From an uncultured Clostridia bacterium (GTDB lineage: Bacteria > Bacillota > Clostridia > Christensenellales > Borkfalkiaceae), in contig CANQUD010000001.1 in the NCBI GenBank assembly GCA_947626935.1, forward strand, positions 1 to 34,088: a stretch of 34,088 bases of DNA. Reading direction: 5' to 3'. The notes beneath the pieces are model-generated. The model saw nothing but the letters and a program-made list of their open reading frames with translations. It made no database searches and was not told the DNA's origin. Below are positions 5,737 through 24,591 of this stretch, one piece after another (positions within the stretch are counted from its first letter, which is position 1; each line of letters starts with the position of its first letter). The position numbers and the translations under genes were made by a program.

Positions 5737-7162
5737 TGCCGCGTCCCATCAGAGATTTTAAGACGGCTTTGTCGCTGTAACTGTACTTGATCCCCATGAT
5801 CTCCTGCTCCGTTTCTCCCCCCTTCCCCGCGACGAGAAGGATGTCCCCTTCCCGCAATTTCCGAAAGGCGTACGCGATCGCCTTCTCCCGTTCTTCAACC
5901 GCTACATAGTTGCGGCTGACCGCCTGAAAGCCCCCTTCGATCTCCGAAATGATCGCACAGGGATCCTCATAGCGGGGATTGTCGGAGGTGATGACAGCAA
6001 AATCGCAATGCTCGGCGACGACTTTGCCCATGAGTGGTCGTTTTGCCCTGTCACGGTTCCCGCCGCAGCCGAACACGACGAACAGACGTCCCTCGGCATG
6101 CTCCTTGAGCGTTTTCAATGACTTTTCGAGTCCGTCGGGCGTATGAGCGAAGTCGACGAACAGGTCGGCGCCGCGGTACGTTCCGATATGCTCCAATCTC
6201 CCTTCCACGCGGACTTTTGAGAGTCCCTCGGCGATGTGCTCCATTCCGATCCCGAGGTTTTTACAGCAGGCGGCTGCCGCAAGGGCATTTGAGACATTAT
6301 GCCGTCCCGTCATGGGAAGTTCCGCTTCGCAGAGGTCGTCCTCGAGGTTCAAAAGCGCCTTTGTGCCGTCGAGACCTTCCCGTTCGATCATCGCGAAGCA
6401 GTCGGCGGGACCGTCCAGTCCGTAGGTCAGCGTCGCGGGCGCGACATTCGAGATCTCCGCGGAAAATTTGTCGTCGCTGTTCACGATCGCAAGACGGCAG
6501 CGGGAAAAGAGAGACTTCTTCGCCTCGCCGTATGACCGCATGTCCGAAAAAAAGTCCAGATGATCTTGCGTCAGGTTCGTAAAAATGGCGCTTTCATACA
6601 CGATCGGGCAGTCCTTCCGAAGGGCAAGCGCATGTGCGGACACTTCCATCGCGACAAATTCCACCTTATCCTTCCGCATGTCGGAGAGGAGAGAAAAGAG
6701 TGAAATGGGGTCGGGCGTCGTCAGGGAAGCGGGAAGAAAGGTCCTGCCGAACTTTGCCCCGAGCGTTCCTACAAGCCCCGCCCTCTTTCCTGCCGCCGTC
6801 AGGATCGCATGGATCATGTGGGCGACGGTCGTCTTTCCGTTCGTCCCCGTCACGGCGATCATCTTCATGTATTTTTCGGGATGACCGTAAAAGGCGGCGG
6901 AGATATGCGCCATTGCCCTGCGGCAGTCGGGCACGAGGATGTACGGAAGCTGCGTGTCCGTTTTCTTTTCGCAGACGAGTGCCGCGGAGCCTCGCCGTTC
7001 CGCCTCGGCTGCATACGTATGGGCGTCCTCCTGCGTGCCGTTGATGCAGAAAAAGAGGTCCCCCTCTCCTGCGACGCGGCTGTCGGCACAGAGCGAGCCG
7101 ATCTCGGGGTCTCCCCCGTGGAGCGTTCCGCCCCCTTCGGCGGCAAGCAATGAAAGTTTCAT
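5726..7162 (-). CDS. murE: UDP-MurNAc-tripeptide synthetase MurE, meso-DAP type
   Basis: A 478-residue Mur ligase adding the third stem-peptide residue to UDP-MurNAc-L-Ala-D-Glu. Marks: ATP loop GTNGKTTVAHM, NLTQDHLDFF in the central domain, GRLEHI, and the C-terminal specificity motif DNPR in VITSDNPRYED. In characterised enzymes DNPR marks meso-diaminopimelate addition, while lysine-adding enzymes have other residues there, so a DAP-type wall is inferred. The ATG at 7162 follows GGAGGG by seven bases and is three bases past the PBP stop. murF, the next enzyme in the pathway, is not next to it. Confidence 0.96.
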   Translation of the reverse strand: MKLSLLAAEGGGTLHGGDPEIGSLCADSRVAGEGDLFFCINGTQEDAHTYAAEAERRGSAALVCEKKTDTQLPYILVPDCRRAMAHISAAFYGHPEKYMKMIAVTGTNGKTTVAHMIHAILTAAGKRAGLVGTLGAKFGRTFLPASLTTPDPISLFSLLSDMRKDKVEFVAMEVSAHALALRKDCPIVYESAIFTNLTQDHLDFFSDMRSYGEAKKSLFSRCRLAIVNSDDKFSAEISNVAPATLTYGLDGPADCFAMIEREGLDGTKALLNLEDDLCEAELPMTGRHNVSNALAAAACCKNLGIGMEHIAEGLSKVRVEGRLEHIGTYRGADLFVDFAHTPDGLEKSLKTLKEHAEGRLFVVFGCGGNRDRAKRPLMGKVVAEHCDFAVITSDNPRYEDPCAIISEIEGGFQAVSRNYVAVEEREKAIAYAFRKLREGDILLVAGKGGETEQEIMGIKYSYSDKAVLKSLMGRGNVE

Positions 7163-13279: not shown

Positions 13280-14791
13280 ATGGCGGAACACATCATCGAA
13301 CTGAAGGGAGTAACGAAATACTTCGGCGAGAATCTCATCATCGACAACGTGAGTTTCTCTGTCAATAAGGGTGAATTCATCACCTTTTTAGGTCCGTCCG
13401 GCTGCGGCAAGACGACGACGCTCCGTATGATCGCGGGGTTCGATCTTCCCACGAGCGGACAGATCCTGTTGAACGGCGAGGACATTTCCGCCCTTCCGCC
13501 CAACAAACGCCCCGTCAATACCGTCTTTCAACGGTATGCCCTCTTCCCCCATCTGAATGTGTATGAAAACATCGCATTCGGTCTGAAGTGCAAGCGCGTC
13601 CTGAACACCTACCGCAACGACAAGGGCGAAGAGTATACGAAGAAGGAAAAATTGACCAAGAAAGAGATCGCCGCCAAGGTGAAAAAGGCGCTCGAGATCG
13701 TCGACCTCGAGGGCTTTGAAAAGCGCTCCATCTCCACCCTCTCGGGCGGGCAGCAGCAGCGTGTCGCGATCGCCCGCGCGATCGTCAACGAACCCGAGAT
13801 CTTGCTGCTCGACGAACCGCTCGGCGCTCTCGACCTGAAGATGCGGAAAGAGATGCAGATCGAGCTGAAAAAAATGCACGACCGCCTCGGCATCACCTTC
13901 ATCTACGTCACGCATGACCAAGAGGAAGCCTTGACGATGTCCGACACGATCGTTGTCATGGCGGACGGCGTCGTGCAGCAGATGGGCACCCCCACCGACA
14001 TCTATAACGAACCCGCGAACACCTTTGTTGCCGATTTCATCGGGGAAAGCAACATCATGAACGGCACCGTCGTCGGCAAGAACAAGGTCCGTTTCTGCGG
14101 GAAGGACTTTGTCTGCGTGGACGATTTCCCCGCAAACGAACCCGTGGACGTCGTCGTCCGCCCCGAAGATATTCGCATGTGCGCACCCGAGGACGGAATG
14201 CTCGCGGGAGAGGTCATCTCCGTCGTTTTCAAGGGCATCCACTATGAGATCACCGTGCAGGTCGGGAAATACGAGTTCGTCATCAACTCCACCCAGAGCA
14301 GGAAGGTCGGCGACAAGATCGGAATGACGATCGCGCCCGACGAGATCCACCTCATGAAGCCCCACTTCATCACGAACGTGTACGACGGCGTCATCACCAA
14401 GCACAACACCGTCCGCTTCGGCGACGGGGAATGGGATTGCGACGTCACCCAGCTCTACCCGGGAAGCTACATCGACGAGGAAGAATACCTCATCACAAAG
14501 ACGGGCGAGAAGATCGATCTGACGGACACGGAAGTGCGCGTGGAAGTCGGTCTCAACGACATCGAGATCAGCGACGAAGAGGACGCGGGCGGCGTCATGG
14601 GACACATCATCTCCATCATCTACAAGGGCGACCACTACCGTCTCATCGTGCGGACGGAAGAGAACGAGGAAGATTACGTCTTTTCCACCGAGGACCTTTG
14701 GAATGAAAACGACTATGTTTCCGTCCTCATTCCGAAGGAAAAGATCAAGCTCACCCTAAAGCCCAAGGCAAAGGAGGATGACGCCGCATGA
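13280..14791 (+). CDS. potA: Spermidine/putrescine ABC transporter ATP-binding protein PotA, extended
   Basis: A 503-residue ABC ATPase powering polyamine import through PotBC. Marks: Walker [10 protein letters not shown] (residues 38-46), Q-loop at [11 protein letters not shown] (84 onward), signature LSGGQQQ (154-160), Walker B ILLLDEP (174-180) and switch histidine H212. Two features are unusual. A roughly 24-residue Lys-rich insertion (104-127) lies between Q-loop and signature. The C-terminal TOBE-like regulatory region seems duplicated: residues 259-361 and 367-494 share the order xxGxVxxxxxVRF then GxxISxxxKGxHYxxxV. Typical PotA is about 350-380 residues. ATG 13280 follows AAAGGAGG by five bases; the stop overlaps the potB start (ATGA). 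Confidence 0.94.
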
Positions 14792-15597
14792 AGCTTCCCC
14801 GTTTCTCGAGAAAGACGCTCTGCATCCCCTACGCTGTCTTTCTCGTCTTCTTTATCATCATTCCGATGTGCGTGATCCTCTTTTACGCCTTCACGGACAA
14901 GGAGATGAATTTTTCCTTCTCCAACTTCCTGCGCTTCTTCTCCGACCCCACGAAGCTCTCCACGATCGCCTATTCGATCGTCATTTCCCTCATCACGACG
15001 GTCATTTGTCTCGTCATCGCCTATCCCGTTGCGCTCATCCTCGCACGGAGCCGACTCAAGAAGAAATTCGTCATTCTGATGCTCTTCGTGCTTCCCATGT
15101 GGATCAACTTCGTGCTCCGCGTCAATGCCCTGCGGGAACTCTTCAATCTCCTCGCACAGGCGGAAGCGCTCGCATGGCTCGAGAACGCAAACATCTTCAA
15201 GACCGTCGTCGGCATGGTCTACGACTTTCTCCCCTTCATGATCCTGCCTCTCTATACGACGATGCTGAAAATCGACAATTCTCTCTATGAGGCGAGCGCG
15301 GATCTCGGTGGGAACGCCTTTGTCACCTTTTTCCGCATCACACTTCCCCTTTCTGTCCCGGGGATCATGAGCGGCGTCACGATGGTCTTTCTGCCTTCCA
15401 TGACGAACTATGTCGTCTCGGACATGCTCGGCAACGCGAAAGTCACCATCATCGGGAAATTCATATCCGATTACTTCGGCAACGATTGGCATATGGGTTC
15501 CATGATCGCGCTCGTCCTTCTCATCGTCGTCTTTGTTTCGACATGGCTCACGGGCGGCTTTAAGTCCGAAGAAAACGTAAGGGGGGCGAATCTGTGA
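14788..15597 (+). CDS. potB: Spermidine/putrescine ABC transporter permease PotB
   Basis: A 269-residue inner-membrane permease with about six hydrophobic segments. The cytoplasmic loop [27 protein letters not shown] is the EAA-type motif that docks onto the ATPase. It pairs with PotC to form the channel. The start overlaps the potA stop and the stop overlaps the potC start, so all four pot genes are translationally coupled. Length is normal for the family. Confidence 0.94.
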
Positions 15598-16403
15598 ACA
15601 AACAATTGTTGATGAAATGCCTCAAAGCATTCTTTGTGGGACTCGTCCTGCTCGTCCTCTATGCCCCCATCCTTCTGCTCGCCGTTTACAGCTTTGACAA
15701 GACGGATATGATCGGGCGTTTCGAGGGATTCTCCTTTACCCACTATGCAGCGCTCTTCCAGAACTCCAAAGTCCTCGGCATGATCGGGAATACCTTCCTG
15801 CTCGCTTTCCTCGCCGCCGTTCTGTCGACGGTTTTGGGGACCGCGGGTGCGCTCGGAATGTTCTACTGCAAGAAGCGGACAAAGACCGCCATCCACGCCG
15901 TCTCGCAGATCCCCGTCATCAACGCGGAGATCGTCACGGCCCTCTCGCTTGCCGTCACCTTTGTCGCCGTGGGGCTGGGGAAGTCCTACTTCACCCTTCT
16001 CATCGGACATATGGTCATATGCACGCCCTTTGTGGTCCTCTCCGTCATGCCCAAGCTCAAGCAGATGGACAATTCCCTCTATGAGGCGGCGCTCGACCTC
16101 GGCGCAAGTCCCTTCAAGGCGCTCCTGCAGGTCGTTCTTCCGCAGATCATCCCGGGGGTCATTTCGGGCTTCATGCTCGCCGTCACCCTCTCGCTCGACG
16201 ACTACATCGTGACGATGTACACCCGCCCTTCCGGGTTCGAGACCATCTCGACCTACGTCTACAATGCGACGACCAAGGGCAATGCGCACACCGCCGTCAC
16301 ACTCGCATCGCTGTGGGCGCTCACGACCATCATCTTCGTCGTCATCGTGCTGTTCGTACTCATCTCCAACCTCACAGGGCGCAAAAAGGAGGCAGACAGA
16401 TGA
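15594..16403 (+). CDS. potC: Spermidine/putrescine ABC transporter permease PotC
   Basis: A 269-residue permease with about six membrane segments. The EAA-type loop LYEAALDLGASPFKALLQVVLP and the following LSLDDYIVT stretch fit PotC. The start is GTG at 15594, overlapping the potB stop (GTGA), with a GGGG-rich ribosome binding site just upstream. The stop overlaps the potD start. Confidence 0.94.
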   Translation: MNKQLLMKCLKAFFVGLVLLVLYAPILLLAVYSFDKTDMIGRFEGFSFTHYAALFQNSKVLGMIGNTFLLAFLAAVLSTVLGTAGALGMFYCKKRTKTAIHAVSQIPVINAEIVTALSLAVTFVAVGLGKSYFTLLIGHMVICTPFVVLSVMPKLKQMDNSLYEAALDLGASPFKALLQVVLPQIIPGVISGFMLAVTLSLDDYIVTMYTRPSGFETISTYVYNATTKGNAHTAVTLASLWALTTIIFVVIVLFVLISNLTGRKKEADR

Positions 16404-18112
16404 AAAAAAGGCGTATTTTTGCTGTCGCCCTTGCGGGTGCAATACTTCTCCCCACGCTTGCGATGCTCTCGGGCTGCGGAGGGGAAGAAGTTGTGACGCT
16501 CCGCGTCTATAATTGGGAAGAATACATCGACGAGGGCGGCGAAAAAACTTTCATATTCGACGAACTCCATGAGCTTGACGAGGAAGGAAAACCGCTCAAG
16601 GACGAAAACGGCGACCATATCCATATCGAATCGGACATCGTCGACGACGATTATAAGGCTTGGTATCGGGAAACGACGGGTCACGACCTCTCCGAGGAAG
16701 GTCCGCGCATCCTCGACGACTTCCGCGAATGGTACGATCGCACCCATCATCAGAAGATCAGAGTGGAATATTCCACGTTCGGCACCAACGAGGACATGTA
16801 CAACGAGATCGTCCTCGGCAACGAATACGACCTTCTGTGCCCTTCCGACTACATGATCATGAAGCTTGCGGCAGAGGGACGGCTCGAGCGGTACGACGAG
16901 AGCTTTTTCGACCCGTCGATCCCCGAAAACTACTATGTCCACAACGTCTCCCCCTTCATCGCCGACAAATTCGAGACGAATGCGGGACTCCCCATCCGCA
17001 CCGATCCCGAAGGGAAAGAGATCTATTGGAAAGATTTCGCCGCGGGCTACATGTGGGGCACGACGGGGTTCGTGTACAATCCCGCGGCGCTCGAAGCGGC
17101 GGGCATTCCCGAGGATGAGCTGCAAGAGCTTGGCTGGGATGTATTCATCGACAGCAATTACGAAGAGAGTCGTTTCAAGGGCAAGATCACGGCAAAGGAC
17201 AACGTGCGCGATACCTACTTTGCCGCCCTCGGGGCGACCTATCAGGATGAACTCCTGCAGCTCGACAGGCAAGCGGGCGATTATATCGAGAAGCTCACTG
17301 AAATTTTCAATGCAACGGACGACGATACCATCAACGAAGTTGAGTCCACGCTCATGAAAATCAAGGAAAACATCTACAGCTTTGAGACGGACACGGGCAA
17401 ATCGGACATGGTGAACGGCAAGATCTGGCTCAACTACGCATGGAGCGGCGACGCCGTCTATGCGCTCGACCTCGCGGAGAGCGGCAAGACCGAGGACGGC
17501 GAGGACGAGAAGAAGGCTTACCTCAACTATTTCGTCCCCGAAGCAGGCTCCAACCTCTTCTTTGACGGCTGGGTCATGCCGAAGGGCGCCAATAAAGAGG
17601 CGGCGCAGGCGTTCGTCAACTTCATGTCGATGCCCCAAAATGCCATGCGGAACAGCTATTACATCGGCTACACTTCCGTCATCTCGGGGGAGATCGGGGA
17701 CGACGACCCAGCCATGCTCACCTATGCCGACTACCTCTATGGCGAGGAGGAAGATGAGGAGAACTTCTACGATCTCTCCTACTTCTTCGGGGCAGAGGAC
17801 GGAACATACGGGATCTATGCGGACGAGGAACAGCGCACCAAGCGGCAGCTCTTTGCCCAGTTCCCCACTCCCGAAGTCATCGCACGCAGCGCAGTGATGG
17901 ACTATTACGACGAACAGGCAAGCATGCGGATCAACGAACTTTGGTCACGGGTCAAGGCGGAATCTCTCGAACCGTGGACGATCGTCGTCATCGTCGTCGC
18001 CGTTCTCGGGATCGCCGCTGCCGTCCTTCTCATCAAGTTCGGCGATAAAATCGACTTCTTCCATGCAAAGCCCAAAAAGGGCTACGAGAAGGTCAAAGAG
18101 GAACGCGCATGA
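16400..18112 (+). CDS. potD: Polyamine-binding lipoprotein PotD, oversized with C-terminal membrane segment
   Basis: A 570-residue substrate-binding protein; usual PotD is about 350. Residues 1-26 form a lipoprotein signal (KKRR start, hydrophobic core, lipobox LSGC with C26). LRVYNWEEYID is the expected first strand and VEYSTFGTNEDMYNEI the next, but about 75 acidic residues separate them. Later PotD-like stretches include DLLCPSDYMIMKLA, MWGTTGFVYNP, NYAWSGDAVYALD and LFFDGWVMPKGANK. Near the C-terminus (about 525-545) TIVVIVVAVLGIAAAVLLI is a clear membrane segment followed by a basic tail, so the protein would be held by both lipid and helix. ATG 16400 follows GGAGG by seven bases and overlaps the potC stop; the longer frame from 16313 lies inside potC. 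Confidence 0.9.
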   Translation: MKKRRIFAVALAGAILLPTLAMLSGCGGEEVVTLRVYNWEEYIDEGGEKTFIFDELHELDEEGKPLKDENGDHIHIESDIVDDDYKAWYRETTGHDLSEEGPRILDDFREWYDRTHHQKIRVEYSTFGTNEDMYNEIVLGNEYDLLCPSDYMIMKLAAEGRLERYDESFFDPSIPENYYVHNVSPFIADKFETNAGLPIRTDPEGKEIYWKDFAAGYMWGTTGFVYNPAALEAAGIPEDELQELGWDVFIDSNYEESRFKGKITAKDNVRDTYFAALGATYQDELLQLDRQAGDYIEKLTEIFNATDDDTINEVESTLMKIKENIYSFETDTGKSDMVNGKIWLNYAWSGDAVYALDLAESGKTEDGEDEKKAYLNYFVPEAGSNLFFDGWVMPKGANKEAAQAFVNFMSMPQNAMRNSYYIGYTSVISGEIGDDDPAMLTYADYLYGEEEDEENFYDLSYFFGAEDGTYGIYADEEQRTKRQLFAQFPTPEVIARSAVMDYYDEQASMRINELWSRVKAESLEPWTIVVIVVAVLGIAAAVLLIKFGDKIDFFHAKPKKGYEKVKEERA

Positions 18113-18181: not shown

Positions 18182-18520
18182 TCATTTTCCGACCGAATCG
18201 GGGGTCAGAAGTGCGTCGCGGTAATACGCCTCGATCGAGACGGAGAAGGCGATCGAAATGTGTGCCTTGAACTCTTCCCCGTCGAGCATCGTGCGAAGGG
18301 TGAAATGAGACGTTCGGTCTGCCCGAAATTGTTCCTCGAGCACCCCGTTCACGAAAAGCTGTCCCCCACGCCGCATCGAAAAGCGGACGATGACCTGCTT
18401 TCCCTTGACGGTATAGACACAGCTCTTGGAACAGGCACGGATCCTCACAATGAGAAAAATCACCATCACGATAAGAAATATGGTTGAAAGGCTAATTGAT
18501 ACGATCAAGGGCATGTACAT
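18182..18520 (-). CDS. Small membrane protein of unknown function
   Basis: A 112-residue protein I do not recognise. Residues 1-28 are a strong membrane anchor (IVSISLSTIFLIVMVIFLIV) followed by basic residues and two cysteines (RACSKSC), then about 80 hydrophilic residues with a beta-rich look (VYTVKGKQVIVRFSMRRGGQLFVNG). Start ATG 18520 follows AGAGG by seven bases; an in-frame TTG at 18538 would overlap that site. It lies 86 bases after the RHH gene and has a palindrome and a weak promoter-like sequence upstream, so it may be a separate unit or the tail of the SPFH operon. Confidence 0.7.
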   Translation of the reverse strand: MYMPLIVSISLSTIFLIVMVIFLIVRIRACSKSCVYTVKGKQVIVRFSMRRGGQLFVNGVLEEQFRADRTSHFTLRTMLDGEEFKAHISIAFSVSIEAYYRDALLTPDSVGK

Positions 18521-18554
18521 GATAGTTTCCTCTTTCAATCTATTTGAATAATCG

Positions 18555-18585
18555 ATTATATTATGTCAGACATAATACTTCGCAA
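18555..18585 (-). promoter_or_regulatory. Weak promoter-like sequence with internal 19-bp palindrome
   Basis: On the minus strand TTGCGA (18585-18580) and TATAAT (18560-18555) are 19 bases apart, longer than ideal. The spacer contains a perfect inverted repeat, TATTATGTC-A-GACATAATA (18559-18577), which would place a bound regulator between the two hexamers. It precedes the 112-residue membrane protein. Both the promoter and operator roles are inference. Confidence 0.45.
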
Positions 18586-18606
18586 AAGGATATATTTTGC
18601 GTGAAA

Positions 18607-18795
18607 TTATGGATTTTCTTCCTTACGTTTAGCTTTCTCCCCCCCCTTACGCTTTTTTACGCAAGCGGTGAGAAGATACTCGATCTGTCCGTTCAGGGAT
18701 CGGAAGTCCTCATCTGCCCACTTTGAAAGCTCCGCATAGAGTGTCGGAGACAGCCTGAGCGGCACTTGTTTTTTATTATTATCCTTGTCGCTCAT
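18607..18795 (-). CDS. Small ribbon-helix-helix (Arc-like) DNA-binding protein
   Basis: A 62-residue protein. Residues 10-45 (KKQVPLRLSPTLYAELSKWADEDFRSLNGQIEYLLTACV) give the short beta strand, two helices and spacing typical of Arc/CopG ribbon-helix-helix repressors; the last 15 residues are a basic tail. ATG 18795 follows a GGAGAGGGGG ribosome binding site and lies inside the end of the 416-residue membrane gene (17-base overlap). No toxin-like gene is beside it, so an operon repressor role is preferred over an antitoxin. The tandem palindromes at the operon promoter (23813-23831) suit a dimeric RHH protein. Confidence 0.8.
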   Translation of the reverse strand: MSDKDNNKKQVPLRLSPTLYAELSKWADEDFRSLNGQIEYLLTACVKKRKGGEKAKRKEENP

Positions 18796-20029
18796 TCCCC
18801 CTCTCCTCTTCGATCGCGATTTTCAGTTCCGCCTCGGTCGGGCGTACTTTTCTGCGGTAAACGGCGTACATGACCATCCAGACGATGAGTGACACGAACG
18901 CTGCTGGGATCAGAAATGCCAAAAAGCTCGCTCCGATCGCAGCGATGAGAAATTGCTCATGGTACAGGATGTAGCCGATCGTTCCGTAGACAATTCCAAA
19001 GACAAGCGGCGCAAGCAGGAAACAGAGAAACATGATGTTCCCCCTTCTCTGCTGTCTGATCCAAGCTCCCTGCAGGTCGCGGCGAAGCGTGTCGGCTCTG
19101 CTGTCCGTCAATTTATTATAATTTCTTTGATAGATGCTCCGCTTTTTTCCCTCGAGCGGCAGGACAAGGACGAAAAAGATGACACCGAAGAGCACAAAGG
19201 CGACGAGAACGACCGTCCATGTGACGATCGGTCCCACCTTTTCCCAAATCGATGAGAAGGAAGCAAGGGCGATCGCGACAACGATCGCAACGCCGAAGAG
19301 CATCGAGACGACTCCGCTCCGCTTGTTGACGGTGCGGAATTCTTCCCGTTCCGCGTCATCCTTCAAAAACATCGCAACGGGAACGGGCAGCATGGAAACG
19401 CCGCGTGCGTTCTCCGATTCCGCCATGATCTTCCGTTCCGAGACGCCGAACCGAATTCGCTTGATCTCGTCCAGTTCCTTCCCCGCCTTTTCGTAGAGGC
19501 TTGCCCGCATCTTCCCTTCCGACACTGCCTTCAGCCATGCGGGGATCGCCATGACGGCGCCCGCAGCCATGCACGCGAGGGGCAAAACGACATCGGGAAG
19601 TTTCATAAAGGTCGCGAGAAGGACGGAAACAGCGAGGATCGCATAGCCGAGCACGCCGATCGCGACCGTAAGCGCTTCCATCGAGGTTTGTCTCCCGAAC
19701 GTTTCGCGCCAAGCCTCGTACAGTTTTCGGTATGCTTCCCGCTCCTCTCCCGTCTTTTCGATCTCGATGGCGCTGTTTTCAAGCTCCACGAGACCCACAA
19801 TAAAGCGTTTCCGCAGCGGTACAAGGAAAACGGCGGCGACCTCGAGCACAAATCCGATGATCGTGAGCGTGAGGTTGACGGGCACGCTTTCCTTGCCGAA
19901 GATCGTCAAAAACATGGGAATGAACGCAAACGTTGCCCCGAAAAGAGCCACAAGCGATTGGAGCGTGCGGGATCTCTTCAGATCGTCCGCCCTTTTTCCC
20001 GTAAGATACAGTTTCAAAAACTCGTCCAT
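18779..20029 (-). CDS. Polytopic membrane protein of unknown function (about 8 TM)
   Basis: A 416-residue protein I cannot assign. It shows four pairs of hydrophobic segments (about 24-45 and 50-72, 118-140 and 145-165, 235-258 and 265-288, 330-355 and 360-388) separated by charged cytosolic-looking loops of 40-70 residues rich in Glu, Lys and Arg; the first loop could be a coiled coil (ELENSAIEIEKTGEEREAYRKLY). The regular pair-loop pattern suggests internal repetition. It starts four bases after the natB-like stop and overlaps the RHH gene, so it belongs to the same transcript. A partner or regulator of the ABC exporter is possible but unproven. Confidence 0.75.
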   Translation of the reverse strand: MDEFLKLYLTGKRADDLKRSRTLQSLVALFGATFAFIPMFLTIFGKESVPVNLTLTIIGFVLEVAAVFLVPLRKRFIVGLVELENSAIEIEKTGEEREAYRKLYEAWRETFGRQTSMEALTVAIGVLGYAILAVSVLLATFMKLPDVVLPLACMAAGAVMAIPAWLKAVSEGKMRASLYEKAGKELDEIKRIRFGVSERKIMAESENARGVSMLPVPVAMFLKDDAEREEFRTVNKRSGVVSMLFGVAIVVAIALASFSSIWEKVGPIVTWTVVLVAFVLFGVIFFVLVLPLEGKKRSIYQRNYNKLTDSRADTLRRDLQGAWIRQQRRGNIMFLCFLLAPLVFGIVYGTIGYILYHEQFLIAAIGASFLAFLIPAAFVSLIVWMVMYAVYRRKVRPTEAELKIAIEEERGNERQG

Positions 20030-20033
20030 TTCA

Positions 20034-21158
20034 TCACTTCCCGAACATGATCTTTTCGCTCGAGAGCATCTTTGTCATGACGAAAACGAGCGCGGCGGTA
20101 TAGAGAAGATTCACGCCGACACTGACAAGAGATTGCCAGACGGGCAATGCCCCCGCGAGGAGTTCCTGCGTGAAAACGACGGCGTTCAGGACGGGGATCG
20201 CAATGACCCAATCGCCGATAGCGGGCAAAAATGCCGCCACGAGCGAGATGACCATGACGAGGATCATGAGCACGCTCGTATAGGCGGACGCTTCCTTGAC
20301 GGAACGCGCGGCAGTCGAGATCGTCGAGATCAAGGCAACGATGAGCGGCACAAAGCTGATGATGAGAAGGAGAAGCAGGAAATAGCTCCCCACTTGGTAG
20401 CCGCCCAAGAAGTTCACGGAGATGCCCATGAGTTTTGGCATCGAGAACACTACGCCCAAGAAACTCGACAGTGCGCCGAGCATGGAGATACACGCGAGCG
20501 GAACGATCTTTCCGAGCGCGATCTGCGAACGTTTCGCGCTCGTCACGAGAATGGTAGAAAGGGTCCCCCGCTCCTTCTCCCCCGCGACGGACTCGAGCGT
20601 CACCGACATGCACGCCGAGAACACGAAGCAGACGATGATGAAGGGCAGGATCTGCTGCATGACCTCCCTGCCAATGTGCTCCTCGGACGCGATGCTGACG
20701 GCTTGGATCGAGAACTTCATGCCGATCTTTTGCAGAACTGCGTTGGAAATGGCATAAAAGGAACTTCCCGCTTCATTCAATGGATCGTACAGAATGGAAA
20801 CGGTGCCGTCTGTCTTTGTGAGATCGGTGAAAACGTCGTCGAAATGCGTCGAGAAGGTCATGATCGCAGCGGCTTCCCCCGCTTCGACCGCCGCTCCCGC
20901 ATCCGCCTCATTCTCGACGGGGAGCCATTCGACCGTGTCGCCGTTTGCCTCGATCGCCGCCTGAATGTACGCCGTCGTGACCGATTCTCCCTGCAAAAAG
21001 ACCTTGTAGTTCTGTTTTTCGGGTTCGGTATGGACGGCTTCGCCGACGAACGTATAGAGAAGAAAAATGACGATCCCCGGGAGAAGCATCGTGACGATGA
21101 GCCGCGGGTCATGGAAGAAGCGGTGGAATTCCTTCCGCATGAGAGACCAGAGTTTCAT
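20034..21158 (-). CDS. ABC-2 type permease (NatB-like)
   Basis: A 374-residue membrane protein of the ABC-2 exporter type. An N-terminal cytosolic stretch (MRKEFHRFFHDPRLIVTMLLPG) leads into one membrane helix (about 22-42), then a long outer domain of about 130 residues and a C-terminal bundle of five or six helices. The pattern SACMSVTLESVAGEKERGTLSTILVTSAKRSQIALGK is the elbow motif typical of NatB/DrrB-like permeases. Its start overlaps the ATPase stop (ATGA). NatAB of Bacillus exports sodium, but this family also exports drugs and peptides, so the substrate is open. Confidence 0.87.
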   Translation of the reverse strand: MKLWSLMRKEFHRFFHDPRLIVTMLLPGIVIFLLYTFVGEAVHTEPEKQNYKVFLQGESVTTAYIQAAIEANGDTVEWLPVENEADAGAAVEAGEAAAIMTFSTHFDDVFTDLTKTDGTVSILYDPLNEAGSSFYAISNAVLQKIGMKFSIQAVSIASEEHIGREVMQQILPFIIVCFVFSACMSVTLESVAGEKERGTLSTILVTSAKRSQIALGKIVPLACISMLGALSSFLGVVFSMPKLMGISVNFLGGYQVGSYFLLLLLIISFVPLIVALISTISTAARSVKEASAYTSVLMILVMVISLVAAFLPAIGDWVIAIPVLNAVVFTQELLAGALPVWQSLVSVGVNLLYTAALVFVMTKMLSSEKIMFGK

Positions 21159-21931
21159 ACCGTTTCCCCCTTCAGAGCGTGATAAAGGTTGAAGAAGGAT
21201 GTCTCAAGATCGCCCTTTGCGATCTCTTCGAGCGTGCCTTCCGCAGCCATTTTTCCGTCGAAGATGATCCCGACGCGGTCACAGAGTTTCTCGACGAGGG
21301 AAAAGATGTGGGTCGAAAGAATGATGCTCTTCCCCATCGCCTTGAGTTCGGCGAGAAAGTCGGTGACGACCTTTGCCGTGAGCACGTCCAGCCCGTTCGT
21401 CGGTTCGTCAAAGATGACGACAGACGGGTCATGAACGATGGAAATAACGAGCGATACCTTTTGGAGCATGCCCGTGGAAAGATTCTTGACCTGAACTTCG
21501 GCAAATTGATCGATGCCGAACTTTGCGAAAAGTTCCCGCTTTCTCTGCTGCAGGACTCCTTTCTCCACGCCGTGCATGGCGCCGAAGAAGTCAAAGAGAT
21601 AATCGGGCGTAAAGAAACCCTCGAGCTTGAGTTCGCTCGTCATGAAGCCGATCTCGTCACGGACCTTTGCGGGATCTTTCACGACCGAATGTCCGCAGAT
21701 GAAAGCATCGCCCGCATCGGGTCTGATGAGCGTCGCGAGCATGCGGAGCGTGGTCGTCTTGCCCGCGCCGTTGGGTCCGAGCAAGCCGTAGATCTCTCCG
21801 CGATAGGCGGAAAAGGAGAGTCCGTTGACGGCGATCCGCCGCGTTTCTCCCGTTTTTTCAATTTTTTGTTGTTTTTTGGAGAGCGTGAAGGTCTTTTTTA
21901 AGGCTTCCGCCCGTACGATCTCTTCCGACAT
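21155..21931 (-). CDS. ABC transporter ATP-binding protein (NatA-like)
   Basis: A 258-residue ATPase for the permease encoded next. Marks: Walker A GPNGAGKTTT, the NatA-like stretch IRPDAGDAFICGHSVVKDP and DEIGFMTSELKL, signature region NLSTGMLQKVSL (a variant of LSGGQ common in this subfamily), Walker B VVIFDEPTNGLD and switch histidine in LSTHI. A basic insertion (KKQQKIEKTGETRR) lies before the first strand. ATG 21931 follows AGAGG by five bases; it is 11 bases after the 292-residue membrane gene. Confidence 0.92.
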   Translation of the reverse strand: MSEEIVRAEALKKTFTLSKKQQKIEKTGETRRIAVNGLSFSAYRGEIYGLLGPNGAGKTTTLRMLATLIRPDAGDAFICGHSVVKDPAKVRDEIGFMTSELKLEGFFTPDYLFDFFGAMHGVEKGVLQQRKRELFAKFGIDQFAEVQVKNLSTGMLQKVSLVISIVHDPSVVIFDEPTNGLDVLTAKVVTDFLAELKAMGKSIILSTHIFSLVEKLCDRVGIIFDGKMAAEGTLEEIAKGDLETSFFNLYHALKGETV

Positions 21932-21942
21932 ACCAACCTCTG

Positions 21943-22821
21943 TTATTTTTTCACGTCGATGACGTTAAGCGCCTTGTAGCCGAGCATGGGAGACAGCGTC
22001 TCGAATTCATAGGGCGGAATGAGGAGTTCAAACGCCTCACTGCCGCGAATTTCCACGCGATAGCAGAACTTTACAGACATCTGCCCGTTGCTGTTCCTGC
22101 GGATCTTATAGGGCTTGAAGGCGCCCTTGTTGAACGGCTCCTGCTTATTCCATCCCACGAACAACCTCTTTTTGCCGATGCGCGAGAGAGACACGATACT
22201 GTCATAGGGAATGCGGACAACATATTCCTCACTCGCGAGGCAGATCGCTTCGCCGTCGCGGAAGGCGTAAACGGGCAAGTTTACAAGAGGGTTTGCGAGC
22301 AAAGTTCCCGTCTGCTTGCCCTTTTTGACGGTATACGGATAGGCAAGGACGTCCACGGGAACTGCCGTTTCGGGCACGAGCATGTTTTCAAGCGCCTCTC
22401 TTCTGACCCTTTCATACTGCGCCTCATGCTCCTTGACGGCGGAAGAATTCATCACCGCCTTCCTGTGAATGGCTTGGATCACAAAGAACGCGGCAGAGGG
22501 AAGTGCAAGTCCCCCGCCGAAGCCGATAAAGTACCAAAAAGCTTGCGAAACTGCTGTCTCGTACGTCATATCCTCTTCCCCGATCTGCTCGATCGCGACA
22601 CAGAGAAGAAGGGCGCCGACAGAGAACAGGACCCCGAACATATGGGTCATCCAAGACGGGAAATTGGCAGCCCTTTGGACGTTGTCGTCCTCTCGGTCCA
22701 TGGCGGAAAGACGGCTCTTGACCCCTTCCTCCGCCCGCCGCACGATGAACTCGCGCCCGTCGGGTTCGGGCAGAGGCCAAGGGTTCTTTCCCTTGATGAG
22801 AAAGCCGAAAAGATTTTTCAT
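21943..22821 (-). CDS. Two-TM membrane protein of unknown function
   Basis: A 292-residue protein I do not recognise. Residues 1-50 are hydrophilic; two membrane segments follow (MFGVLFSVGALLLCVAI at about 59-76 and FWYFIGFGGGLALPSAAFFVI at about 90-112); the remaining 180 residues look cytosolic and beta-rich, with KKGKQTGTLLANPLVNLPVYAF and VGWNKQEPFNKGAFKPYKI. The ribosome binding site is close to the ATG (AAAGG only two bases away). It sits between the SPFH gene (15 bases) and the ATPase (11 bases), so co-expression is near certain. A PH-like or membrane-anchoring scaffold fold is possible, but this is guesswork. Confidence 0.72.
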   Translation of the reverse strand: MKNLFGFLIKGKNPWPLPEPDGREFIVRRAEEGVKSRLSAMDREDDNVQRAANFPSWMTHMFGVLFSVGALLLCVAIEQIGEEDMTYETAVSQAFWYFIGFGGGLALPSAAFFVIQAIHRKAVMNSSAVKEHEAQYERVRREALENMLVPETAVPVDVLAYPYTVKKGKQTGTLLANPLVNLPVYAFRDGEAICLASEEYVVRIPYDSIVSLSRIGKKRLFVGWNKQEPFNKGAFKPYKIRRNSNGQMSVKFCYRVEIRGSEAFELLIPPYEFETLSPMLGYKALNVIDVKK

Positions 22822-22836
22822 ATCCTTTCAATCAAT

Positions 22837-23793
22837 TTAGTAAATGCTCCCTGTGCCGACGACGGGCTGGGCGTCGCGGTTGCCGCAGAGTACGACGAGA
22901 AGGTTGGAGACCATCTGCGCCTTTCTTTCGTCGTCGAGTTCGACGATCTCCTCTTCGGAGAGCTTGTTGAGCGCCATCTGGACCATGGAGACTGCGCCTT
23001 CCACGATCTTCTGCCTTGCGGCGATGATGGCGGAAGCCTGCTGACGCTGGAGCATTGCCGCGGCGATCTCGGGTGCATAGGCAAGGTGAGAGATCCTCGC
23101 TTCGATGATCTCGATCCCCGCGATCTCCACGCGCTGCTGGAGTTCTTCGCGAAGAATGGCTGCGATCTCCTGTGCGCTCCCGCGGAGAGAGTTTTCATCC
23201 CCGTTCGACGAGACATCGTAAGGGTACTGTCTTGCGACTTGGCGGATCGCCGCGTCGCATTGGGTGGAGATGTAAGACATGTAATTTTCAACGTTAAAGA
23301 CCGCACGCGCGGTGTTCGTGATCCGCCAGATGACGACGACGGAGATCTCGATCGGGTTCCCCTCTTCGTCGTTGACTTTCTGCTTGTCGTTGTTCAGTGT
23401 CATCGCCTTCAAAGAAAGCTTCCTCGAGACGCCGCCGACCGCTCTTGCGGGGTTGACAGCTGCGCAGAACGGGTTCGTCCAATAAAATCCGTCCGTCTTG
23501 AGCGTTCCGTGATACTTGCCGAAGAGGGTCAAAACGTAGGCTTCATTGGGCTGAAGGAGCCTGAAACCGAACGTCATGACGATCGACGCGAAAAACGTCA
23601 ACATCCCGACAGGGGCAAGGGCAATGAGCGGTGCAAAGTCCTCGTCGACGCCGAATGCGATCCCGAGGGCAAACATGGCGATGCCGAGAATGATCATACC
23701 GAAGATCACAAACAGCATGAGCCAACCGCTTACCTGCTTTGCGGGGCGTTCATCCACGACGTTGAGAGATCTGACTTCCTTGATTTCTTCCAT
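22837..23793 (-). CDS. SPFH/band 7 domain membrane protein
   Basis: A 318-residue membrane scaffold-type protein of the SPFH (stomatin, prohibitin, flotillin, HflK/C) family. Two N-terminal membrane segments (about 23-46 and 55-76), then the SPFH core beginning [28 protein letters not shown] and continuing through [26 protein letters not shown], ending in a helical part rich in Ala, Glu and Gln ([29 protein letters not shown]). Start: two ATGs lie close together; the GGAGG is only two bases before the first (23799) but eight before the second (23793), so the second is chosen. It is the first gene of the minus-strand operon with a strong promoter and tandem palindromes upstream. SPFH proteins of Bacillota are tied to membrane organisation and envelope stress; the exact role here is unknown. 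Confidence 0.9.
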
Positions 23794-23812
23794 TTCCATA
23801 TCCTCCGAAATG

Positions 23813-23831
23813 TGATATCATTTTGATATCA
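23813..23831 (-). promoter_or_regulatory. Tandem 8-bp palindromes at the SPFH operon start (candidate RHH operator)
   Basis: Two perfect copies of TGATATCA (23813-23820 and 23824-23831) are separated by 3 bp, centres 11 bp apart (about one helical turn). They begin two bases after the -10 hexamer and cover the expected start of transcription, a repressing position. Two-fold symmetric boxes in tandem suit dimers of a ribbon-helix-helix repressor such as the one encoded at 18607-18795. Confidence 0.65.
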
Positions 23832-23833
23832 TC

Positions 23834-23862
23834 ATGCTACCACATTCCCCAACATTTGTCAA
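23834..23862 (-). promoter_or_regulatory. Promoter of the SPFH-NatAB-RHH operon
   Basis: On the minus strand TTGACA (23862-23857), a 17-base spacer and TAGCAT (23839-23834). Perfect -35, -10 with two mismatches. Divergent from the upp promoter 40 bases away. Confidence 0.8.
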
Positions 23863-23902: not shown

Positions 23903-23931
23903 TTGAAAAGTATCAAGGATTGTGTTATGAT
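23903..23931 (+). promoter_or_regulatory. Promoter of upp
   Basis: TTGAAA (23903-23908), 17-base spacer, TATGAT (23926-23931). It lies 30 bases before the upp ATG, leaving a leader of about 24 bases, and rules out the longer in-frame start at 23920. Confidence 0.85.
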
Positions 23932-23961
23932 AGTTTCAAGAAAGACATGGGAGAACAACGA

Positions 23962-24591
23962 ATGAACAACGTTTTTATCTTCGATCACCCACTTATCAAC
24001 CATAAAATCGCGATCTTGCGCGACAAAAGTACGGGCATGAAGGAGTTCCGTGAACTCATCGAGGAGATCACGATCATCATGACCTATGAGAGCATGCGCG
24101 ATGTGAAGCTCGAGCCGATCGACGTCGAGACGCCGCTTGAGATCACGCGGCAGTACCGTGTTCCCGAGGGAAGCGTTGCGATCGTCCCCATTCTCCGTGC
24201 GGGACTCGGCATGGTGAGCGGCGTACATAAGGTATTTCCGAACGCAAAAGTCGGGCACATCGGCATGTACCGCGACGAGACGACGCTCGAGCCGCAAGAA
24301 TATTATTGTAAGCTTCCCGATGGCATCGCGGAAAAGATGCTTCTCCTCGTCGATCCAATGCTCGCAACGGGCGGGTCTGCCTGCGATGCGCTTACGGCGC
24401 TCAAAAAACGGGGCTGCAAACACATCAAGCTCATGTCGATCATCGGAGCGCCCGAGGGCGTCGAACGGGTCGCGCGGGAACATCCCGATGTTCAGATCTA
24501 TGTCTCCACGCTCGACAGATGCCTCAACGAGAACGGTTACATCCTTCCCGGTCTCGGGGATGCGGGCGACAGACTCTTCGGAACAAAGTAA
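23962..24591 (+). CDS. upp: Uracil phosphoribosyltransferase
   Basis: A 209-residue pyrimidine salvage enzyme making UMP from uracil and PRPP, exactly the usual length when started at ATG 23962. Marks: VFIFDHPLINHKIAILRDKST at the start, RAGLGMVSG, the PRPP-binding loop LLVDPMLATGGSA, and the uracil-site ending NGYILPGLGDAGDRLFGTK. GGGAGA lies seven bases before the chosen ATG; the frame extends to 23920 but that would begin inside the -10 box. Single-gene unit between two minus-strand operons. Confidence 0.97.
   Translation: MNNVFIFDHPLINHKIAILRDKSTGMKEFRELIEEITIIMTYESMRDVKLEPIDVETPLEITRQYRVPEGSVAIVPILRAGLGMVSGVHKVFPNAKVGHIGMYRDETTLEPQEYYCKLPDGIAEKMLLLVDPMLATGGSACDALTALKKRGCKHIKLMSIIGAPEGVERVAREHPDVQIYVSTLDRCLNENGYILPGLGDAGDRLFGTK

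Follow-up and report, generated by a model that had tools for sequence, protein, structure and literature searches.

A predicted autorepressed SPFH and ribbon-helix-helix gene pair whose short operator also precedes ABC exporter operons in the Borkfalkiaceae

Why would an SPFH membrane scaffold, an ABC exporter and a DNA-binding protein of 62 residues be encoded side by side? The question is raised by a cluster of seven genes in a 34,088-nt stretch of DNA from an uncultured Clostridia bacterium of the family Borkfalkiaceae (assembly GCA_947626935.1, contig CANQUD010000001.1, positions 1 to 34,088; hereafter the window). We propose that the core of the cluster is probably an SPFH gene paired with a ribbon-helix-helix (RHH) gene whose product would repress its own operon, and that ABC-2 exporters have joined the RHH regulon, in cis here and in trans elsewhere. 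This proposal is made because the two genes are paired, an operator lies at the SPFH promoter, and additional sites precede ABC operons; a short operator shared by SPFH-RHH and membrane pumps suggests one control circuit not described before. The features are as follows:

22837-23799, minus strand: SPFH/Band-7 protein, 320 aa (Pfam Band_7, PF01145)
21943-22821, minus strand: 292-aa protein with two transmembrane (TM) helices by hydropathy; no family
21155-21931, minus strand: ABC-transporter ATPase of the ABC-2/DrrA-NatA type, 258 aa (Pfam ABC_tran)
20034-21158, minus strand: ABC-2 type permease, 374 aa (Pfam ABC2_membrane_3)
18779-20029, minus strand: 416-aa protein with about eight TM helices; no family
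18607-18795, minus strand: RHH (Arc-like) protein, 62 aa, identified by family profile; proposed autorepressor
18182-18538, minus strand: 118-aa protein with one TM helix and a TTG start, separated from the RHH gene by 68 nt
23834..23862, minus strand: promoter; -35 TTGACA at 23862-23857, 17-nt spacer, extended -10 TGGTAGCAT with TAGCAT at 23839-23834
23813..23842, strand (.): operator made of tandem palindromes, three 8-bp boxes with centres 11 bp apart

Two perfect 8-bp palindromes, TGATATCA, lie just downstream of the -10 element (23813-23820 and 23824-23831) at a spacing of 11 bp, and a third, degenerate box (TGGTAGCA on the minus strand, 23835-23842) overlaps the -10 itself. With up to three mismatches the operator pattern is matched twice in the window against 0.03 expected, and the SPFH promoter is the sole such place in the 1.675-Mb genome assembly; the operator over the promoter is therefore not a product of chance. 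A spacing of one helical turn suits RHH dimers bound side by side. The first-pass annotation of this DNA had no operator over the promoter, yet this is the most informative part of the locus.

The candidate reader of these boxes is the 62-aa protein, which by similarity belongs to the Arc/MetJ-type RHH family. A family profile built from 30 members matches pArc (E=2.5e-6) and the Arc repressor (E=0.0027) among solved structures, the Arc repressor of P22 being the closest by sequence; here, a member of the same sequence family is the regular partner of a chromosomal SPFH gene. Residues K9, R14, A27, R32, S33 and N35 are invariant in the alignment and 28 of the 30 members match Pfam RHH_5 at E<=1, the window protein by itself staying under the Pfam cut-off (17.9 vs 26 bits). 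Operator binding and autorepression are predictions from this kinship. Arc and MetJ bind as cooperative RHH dimers to repeated short sites; the site proposed here is likewise repeated, as a perfect 8-bp palindrome, TGATATCA, every 11 bp. Public annotations of the RHH gene that follows SPFH (loci L193, L194, L195 and L198) read hypothetical protein, Arc family DNA-binding protein or HicB-family antitoxin.

Does the operator follow the RHH gene or the SPFH gene? We counted a site as a match with at most one mismatch anywhere in the genome, and an SPFH gene at E<=1e-60, across 151 genomes of the host family. RHH is present in 81 genomes, SPFH in 88 (including all 81) and the site in 79; RHH and site occur together in 76, site only in 3, RHH only in 5 and neither in 67 (Fisher p=1e-32). 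The site lies just upstream of SPFH in 75 of the 81 RHH genomes (places compared by eye) and only elsewhere in genome G080, while a weaker site lies upstream of SPFH in each of the five RHH-only genomes, with 14/16 positions in four and 13/16 in G111. The site-only genomes are G067, G008 and G143; the last two have identical sequence, and the G008 site lies at the end of a contig, within a reading frame. Among the seven genomes with SPFH and no RHH gene, five have no site, G067 keeps a site together with a 44-aa RHH remnant, and G122 has a 14/16 site. The site is thus found in 76/81 SPFH genomes with RHH vs 1/7 without (Fisher 6e-6): it tracks RHH rather than SPFH. The earlier suggestion that the operon is self-regulated is strongly supported, as far as sequence can speak, by the Arc-type protein and by an operator that tracks its gene across genomes.

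The pairing extends well beyond the family. Of 299 genomes sampled from the phylum, 73 match the RHH profile, and 76 loci were taken from the 72 other than the window's own; SPFH lies directly upstream of RHH on the same strand in 66 of these 72 genomes (67/73 with the window), and the distance, measured in 65 pairs, runs from -52 to 115 nt. In six genomes (G357, G337, G225, G160, G329 and G372) the best RHH hit is unpaired, and only the hits in G357 (L092) and G337 (L113) are strong. Every position of each phylum locus was scored against TGATATCAnnnTGATATCA and the best place in the locus taken, a test that is independent because the motif was derived from the window and tried on other families. 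With strict gene starts, 58 of 65 loci have a best match at the SPFH promoter, where 1.76 would be expected; with starts set by the SPFH profile, which gives a wider region, the figures are 62 of 66 and 2.06. Of the four loci that fail, two lie at contig ends (L089, L139) and two have a fragmentary SPFH frame (L094, L132). A box spacing of 11 bp scores best in this test, with 62 loci, ahead of 22 bp with 56, the other eight spacings tested reaching at most 42. Of 24 control palindromes with six A/T, the two that agree with TGATATCA at 6/8 letters score 47/66 and 30/66 loci; the third-ranking control, among the 15 of 24 counts listed, scores 22/66. A phylum-wide search allowing two mismatches was discarded as too loose, as it found matches in 193/299 genomes and its reversed control also hit many, hence the use of one mismatch or of in-locus ranking. 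A separate observation concerns L155 (genome G329): at 6029-6254 an RHH homologue with no SPFH neighbour is preceded, 21 nt from its start, by a 15/16 operator.

Outside the phylum sample, SPFH homologues turned up in 28 plasmid and 7 phage records. Six plasmid records and one phage record were opened; 11 Vibrio records (about 29% identity where listed) lie outside those. In all six plasmid records (Deinococcus, Prevotella, Parabacteroides, Acetoanaerobium, Nonomuraea and Qipengyuania), which span five phyla (probably including that of the window, Bacillota), RHH lies next to SPFH and the best operator match (13-16/16) stands 13-143 nt upstream of SPFH; the one phage record opened, from an Enterococcus phage, has neither RHH nor site. 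SPFH-RHH is an old pair.

How do exporters enter this picture? RHH-bearing genomes of the host family contain 13 extra sites (at most one mismatch, away from the main SPFH promoter), and 11 of them stand 13-75 nt ahead of operons with an ABC ATPase, in nine genomes and six genera and with at least four architectures: an ATPase with a 518-534-aa membrane protein (L163, L170, L171, L203); a 303-309-aa ATPase with an ABC-2 permease, all five permeases being above cut-off (L165, L166, L168, L200, L202); a DUF4097 gene, an ATPase and a 356-aa protein (L167); and an ATPase and permease closest to the window pair (L169). The remaining two lie at contig ends, one before an SPFH fragment (G098:C39), the other unreadable (G070:C132). 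Only 34 of 874 genes near phylum RHH loci (3.9%) are ATPase-like, and the naive probability of 11/11 ATPase operons, 3e-16, overstates the case because related genera share ancestry. These sites support the earlier idea that SPFH and exporter are linked.

We hypothesize that the tandem TGATATCA boxes, spaced by one helical turn along one face of the DNA, are bound by RHH dimers, which would then block the promoter that drives SPFH and all downstream genes. In the host genus SPFH and RHH enclose the exporter genes and those of two accessory membrane proteins, an arrangement in which scaffold, exporter and repressor would share one switch; in other genera of the family the RHH protein may run a small regulon of one SPFH scaffold and ABC-2 exporters, because the same operator stands before separate exporter operons. 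Membrane perturbation or build-up of the exported compound would lift the repression, and derepressed SPFH may then organise or stabilise the exporter in the membrane. A role in envelope stress, as the first-pass annotation proposed, is conjectural, and nothing specific points to sodium export. The function of bacterial SPFH proteins is a long-standing question, and one SPFH lineage now appears tied, in several phyla, to a dedicated DNA-binding protein and its operator. A recognisable operator makes SPFH regulation directly testable and co-regulated genes findable by a simple pattern search, which in the host family yields ABC-2 exporters and with them a specific, testable idea of what the scaffold does.

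What could release the repressor? The RHH protein has no sensing part, so that release must come from elsewhere, and the C-terminus of SPFH is a candidate. The SPFH protein (PF01145, E=4.6e-27, 95.6 bits vs a cut-off of 23.6) has hydrophobic segments at its N-terminus and a C-terminal tail that ends GTGSIY. Among the 65 SPFH homologues of the phylum that are paired with RHH, 61 have a tail ending exactly in [GS][ST][LIM]Y, and a terminal Tyr is kept by only 1 of the 7 host-family homologues without RHH. Deletions that took both gene ends could simply explain this last figure, and in two Bacteroidota records with RHH the tail ends otherwise, making the pattern less strict. It is conceivable, albeit doubtful, that SPFH itself is the sensor, its assembly holding or releasing the Arc-like repressor, perhaps via this tail. 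If so, membrane state would directly set transcription of the scaffold and, in the host family, of ABC exporters, and a two-protein membrane-to-DNA signalling system would be present in at least five phyla.

Our proposal of an autorepressed core joined by exporters has to be weighed against several observations. The 62-aa protein is devoid of a sensing domain, and the 12 kb taken around the strong RHH hits of L092 and L113 contain neither SPFH nor the site. In 65 genomes outside the family, sites with at most one mismatch are almost only those of SPFH-RHH, which makes the exporter link look like a trait of this lineage; two extra sites there lie elsewhere, one in another family (L205, 2642-2660), 14 nt before a DUF3887/alpha-beta hydrolase gene, the other inside a ThiF reading frame (L206). 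Within the family, sites in related genera may be co-inherited, in which case the eleven are not independent. Of the 518-534-aa partner proteins, only that of L163 is over the ABC_tran_2 cut-off, those of L170 and L203 are near it and that of L171 has no family, as is true of the 356-aa protein of L167. Autorepression might instead serve SPFH homeostasis only, with exporter genes parked behind a convenient, steady promoter and no functional tie to SPFH: most of the fetched phylum pairs have no exporter between SPFH and RHH and one site at most at this threshold, and a repressor without a sensing domain fits homeostasis. What parking behind one promoter fails to explain is that, in six genera of the family, exporters with at least four different architectures have operator copies of their own elsewhere in the genome; we consider the homeostasis explanation unlikely.

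Two further explanations start from the genes between SPFH and RHH. An ABC-2 ATPase and permease that share an operon with a small regulator could form an ordinary exporter of antimicrobial compounds or drugs with a local repressor, SPFH being incidental. Gene neighbourhoods largely refute this highly improbable view, as the constant partner of RHH and of the operator is SPFH, not the exporter, and in 4 of the 14 genomes of the genus that carry RHH the pair stands with no exporter beside it. The locus might also be a toxin-antitoxin-like or defence module, with RHH as an antitoxin-type repressor and the 416-aa protein as a SLATT-like membrane effector: one record labels the RHH protein a HicB-family antitoxin, 22-23 of the 30 RHH members weakly match the HicB and ParD_like models, and five of nine homologues of the 416-aa protein weakly match SLATT_1 (best E=0.0019). 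We give this very little credence, given that the window 416-aa protein itself stays below the SLATT cut-off (13.5 vs 41 bits, E=0.054), that PADLOC finds nothing in the window beyond generic ATPase matches, and that the fetched phylum pairs have no 416-aa gene (no match of its profile among those listed).

Returning to the autorepressed core and its exporter, how is the whole cluster built and conserved? From SPFH to RHH, six genes with gaps of 15, 11, -4, 4 and -17 nt follow a good promoter as a single tight operon and would share a transcript. The SPFH promoter has 10/12 consensus matches, with TG ahead of the -10, and is among the two best of 7 promoter-like sites in the scanned stretch (shuffles expect 3.3); the second, equally good, lies on the opposite strand ahead of the divergent gene. 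Coordinates, gaps and Pfam matches agree with the operon described in the first-pass annotation, including its gene order, tight gaps and single strong promoter. The 118-aa gene, the small membrane protein noted there at the end of the cluster, is not tightly coupled, with 68 nt to the RHH gene, though homologues come after RHH in several relatives.

Among the 19 sampled genomes of the host genus, SPFH, ATPase and permease are followed by RHH in 8, a count that takes in the window and two genomes (G117, G140) with the cluster split over contig ends; the genes are thus not unlinked in relatives, in agreement with the earlier expectation, and L017 has the first six in the same order as the window. 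Elsewhere in the genus the cluster shrinks: G111 lacks the exporter but keeps SPFH, RHH and a divergent 416-aa protein; G027, G055, G066 and G123 (L176-L179) have SPFH-RHH alone or with a small membrane protein; and G129 (L180) has the pair with a 224-aa protein, which completes the 14 RHH-bearing genomes of the genus. In genus g8, SPFH and RHH occur with a protein of the 416-aa type (about half length in L044) and no exporter. A reading frame of the 500-aa ATPase class, which we take to be the first gene of a potABCD-like operon, stays on the far side of the cluster in ten relative loci (L017, L035, L036, L038-L041, L047, L207, L208), even where the exporter is missing, and the genomic place of the cluster is therefore conserved. 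No sign of a mobile element was seen around the cluster in the loci viewed.

The exporter genes are an ABC-2 pair, by sequence of the NatAB/DrrAB type, the ATPase matching ABC_tran (PF00005, E=2.9e-25) and the permease ABC2_membrane_3 (PF12698, E=4.3e-24). The NatAB-like exporter claimed at first stands at the level of an ABC-2 exporter and not of a named family, as the best NCBIfam matches, drrA for the ATPase (TIGR01188, 212.6 vs 312.45 bits) and ABC_perm_CPBP (142.3 vs 435 bits), are both below cut-off. As in DrrAB and NatAB, the ATPase and ABC-2 permease genes are adjacent and overlapping; here, in contrast, they are encoded between SPFH and RHH.

The 292- and 416-aa proteins, first cast as working with the exporter, are variable accessories, and a role as essential partners is not supported. 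Among the 151 family genomes the 416-aa protein is matched in 15 (four at E ~6e-4 to 1e-3, probably by chance) and the 292-aa protein in 16. A search of the 416-aa protein against genome contigs returned one relative, L017. Homologues of the 292-aa protein occur within or next to the operon in L017 and in five more genomes of the genus. The 416-aa protein finds no match in G092, nor the 292-aa protein in G042 and G140, and the four RHH-bearing genomes of the genus with no exporter beside SPFH-RHH have neither gene there. The 292-aa protein consists of two TM helices and a soluble C-terminal domain with a GWNK motif; the 416-aa protein, with about eight TM helices, has homologues of about half its length (201-205 aa) in another genus, and hhalign points weakly to an internal duplication (probability 87). 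No Pfam family is above cut-off for the 292-, 416-, 118- or 62-aa protein. The profile searches and structure prediction once suggested for the two larger ones gave no identity: their profiles find no consistent Pfam or NCBIfam family and nothing credible among solved structures (best E 0.84 for the 416-aa and 0.57 for the 292-aa protein), and prediction from two-sequence alignments (window and L017) has a mean pLDDT of 57 (416-aa) and 41 (292-aa), too poor for a fold search. Distant 292-aa homologues occur in other genera away from SPFH, in L053 and L054 beside genes of about 340 and 290 aa.

Is such an arrangement known? SPFH operons with NfeD and with PspA/YdjGH are known, and the SPFH-RHH pair with its operator differs from both. 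In the pspA-ydjGHI operon of Bacillus subtilis, the SPFH protein YdjI is encoded with the membrane proteins YdjG/YdjH and has a reported stress role (PMC8581546); the likeness lies in an SPFH gene in an operon with membrane proteins, but that operon is driven by sigma-W whereas here an Arc-like gene of its own and an operator are present. None of the seven window genes matches the PspA models of Pfam or NCBIfam. Prokaryotic SPFH subfamilies 1-12 have been defined with their operon context (Hinderhofer et al., 2009, PMC2636767), the available sections giving NfeD-type conserved partners to SPFH1, 2 and 5 and, to other subgroups, companions with neither NfeD homology nor likeness to known companions; the words 'Ribbon' and 'DNA-binding' occur 0 times in its main text. 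The SPFH domain and N-terminal membrane segment are shared with these subfamilies, the window protein not being placed in one of them; its regular partner is an RHH protein, and a sequence search found no NfeD Pfam match among the seven window genes. The SPFH protein also stays below the HflK/HflC models (TIGR01933, 26.4 vs 159.4 bits; TIGR01932, 13.6 vs 134.4 bits). Among the literature matches listed, which mostly leave out subscription journals, no published description of the SPFH-RHH pair or of this operator was found; PMC8656257 is the one paper with both 'SPFH' and 'ribbon-helix-helix', the latter, in the text available, only in a reference on VirC2.

As to the surroundings, the genes at 13280-18112, presumably a potABCD-like polyamine uptake operon, converge on the SPFH operon. 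Divergent to the SPFH promoter is a gene at 23920-24591, which we take to be upp-like (uracil phosphoribosyltransferase); by eye, the same kind of gene is present in L017, and in several relatives (for example L035, L036, L039, L042 and L047) a gene of 404-439 aa stands in its place.

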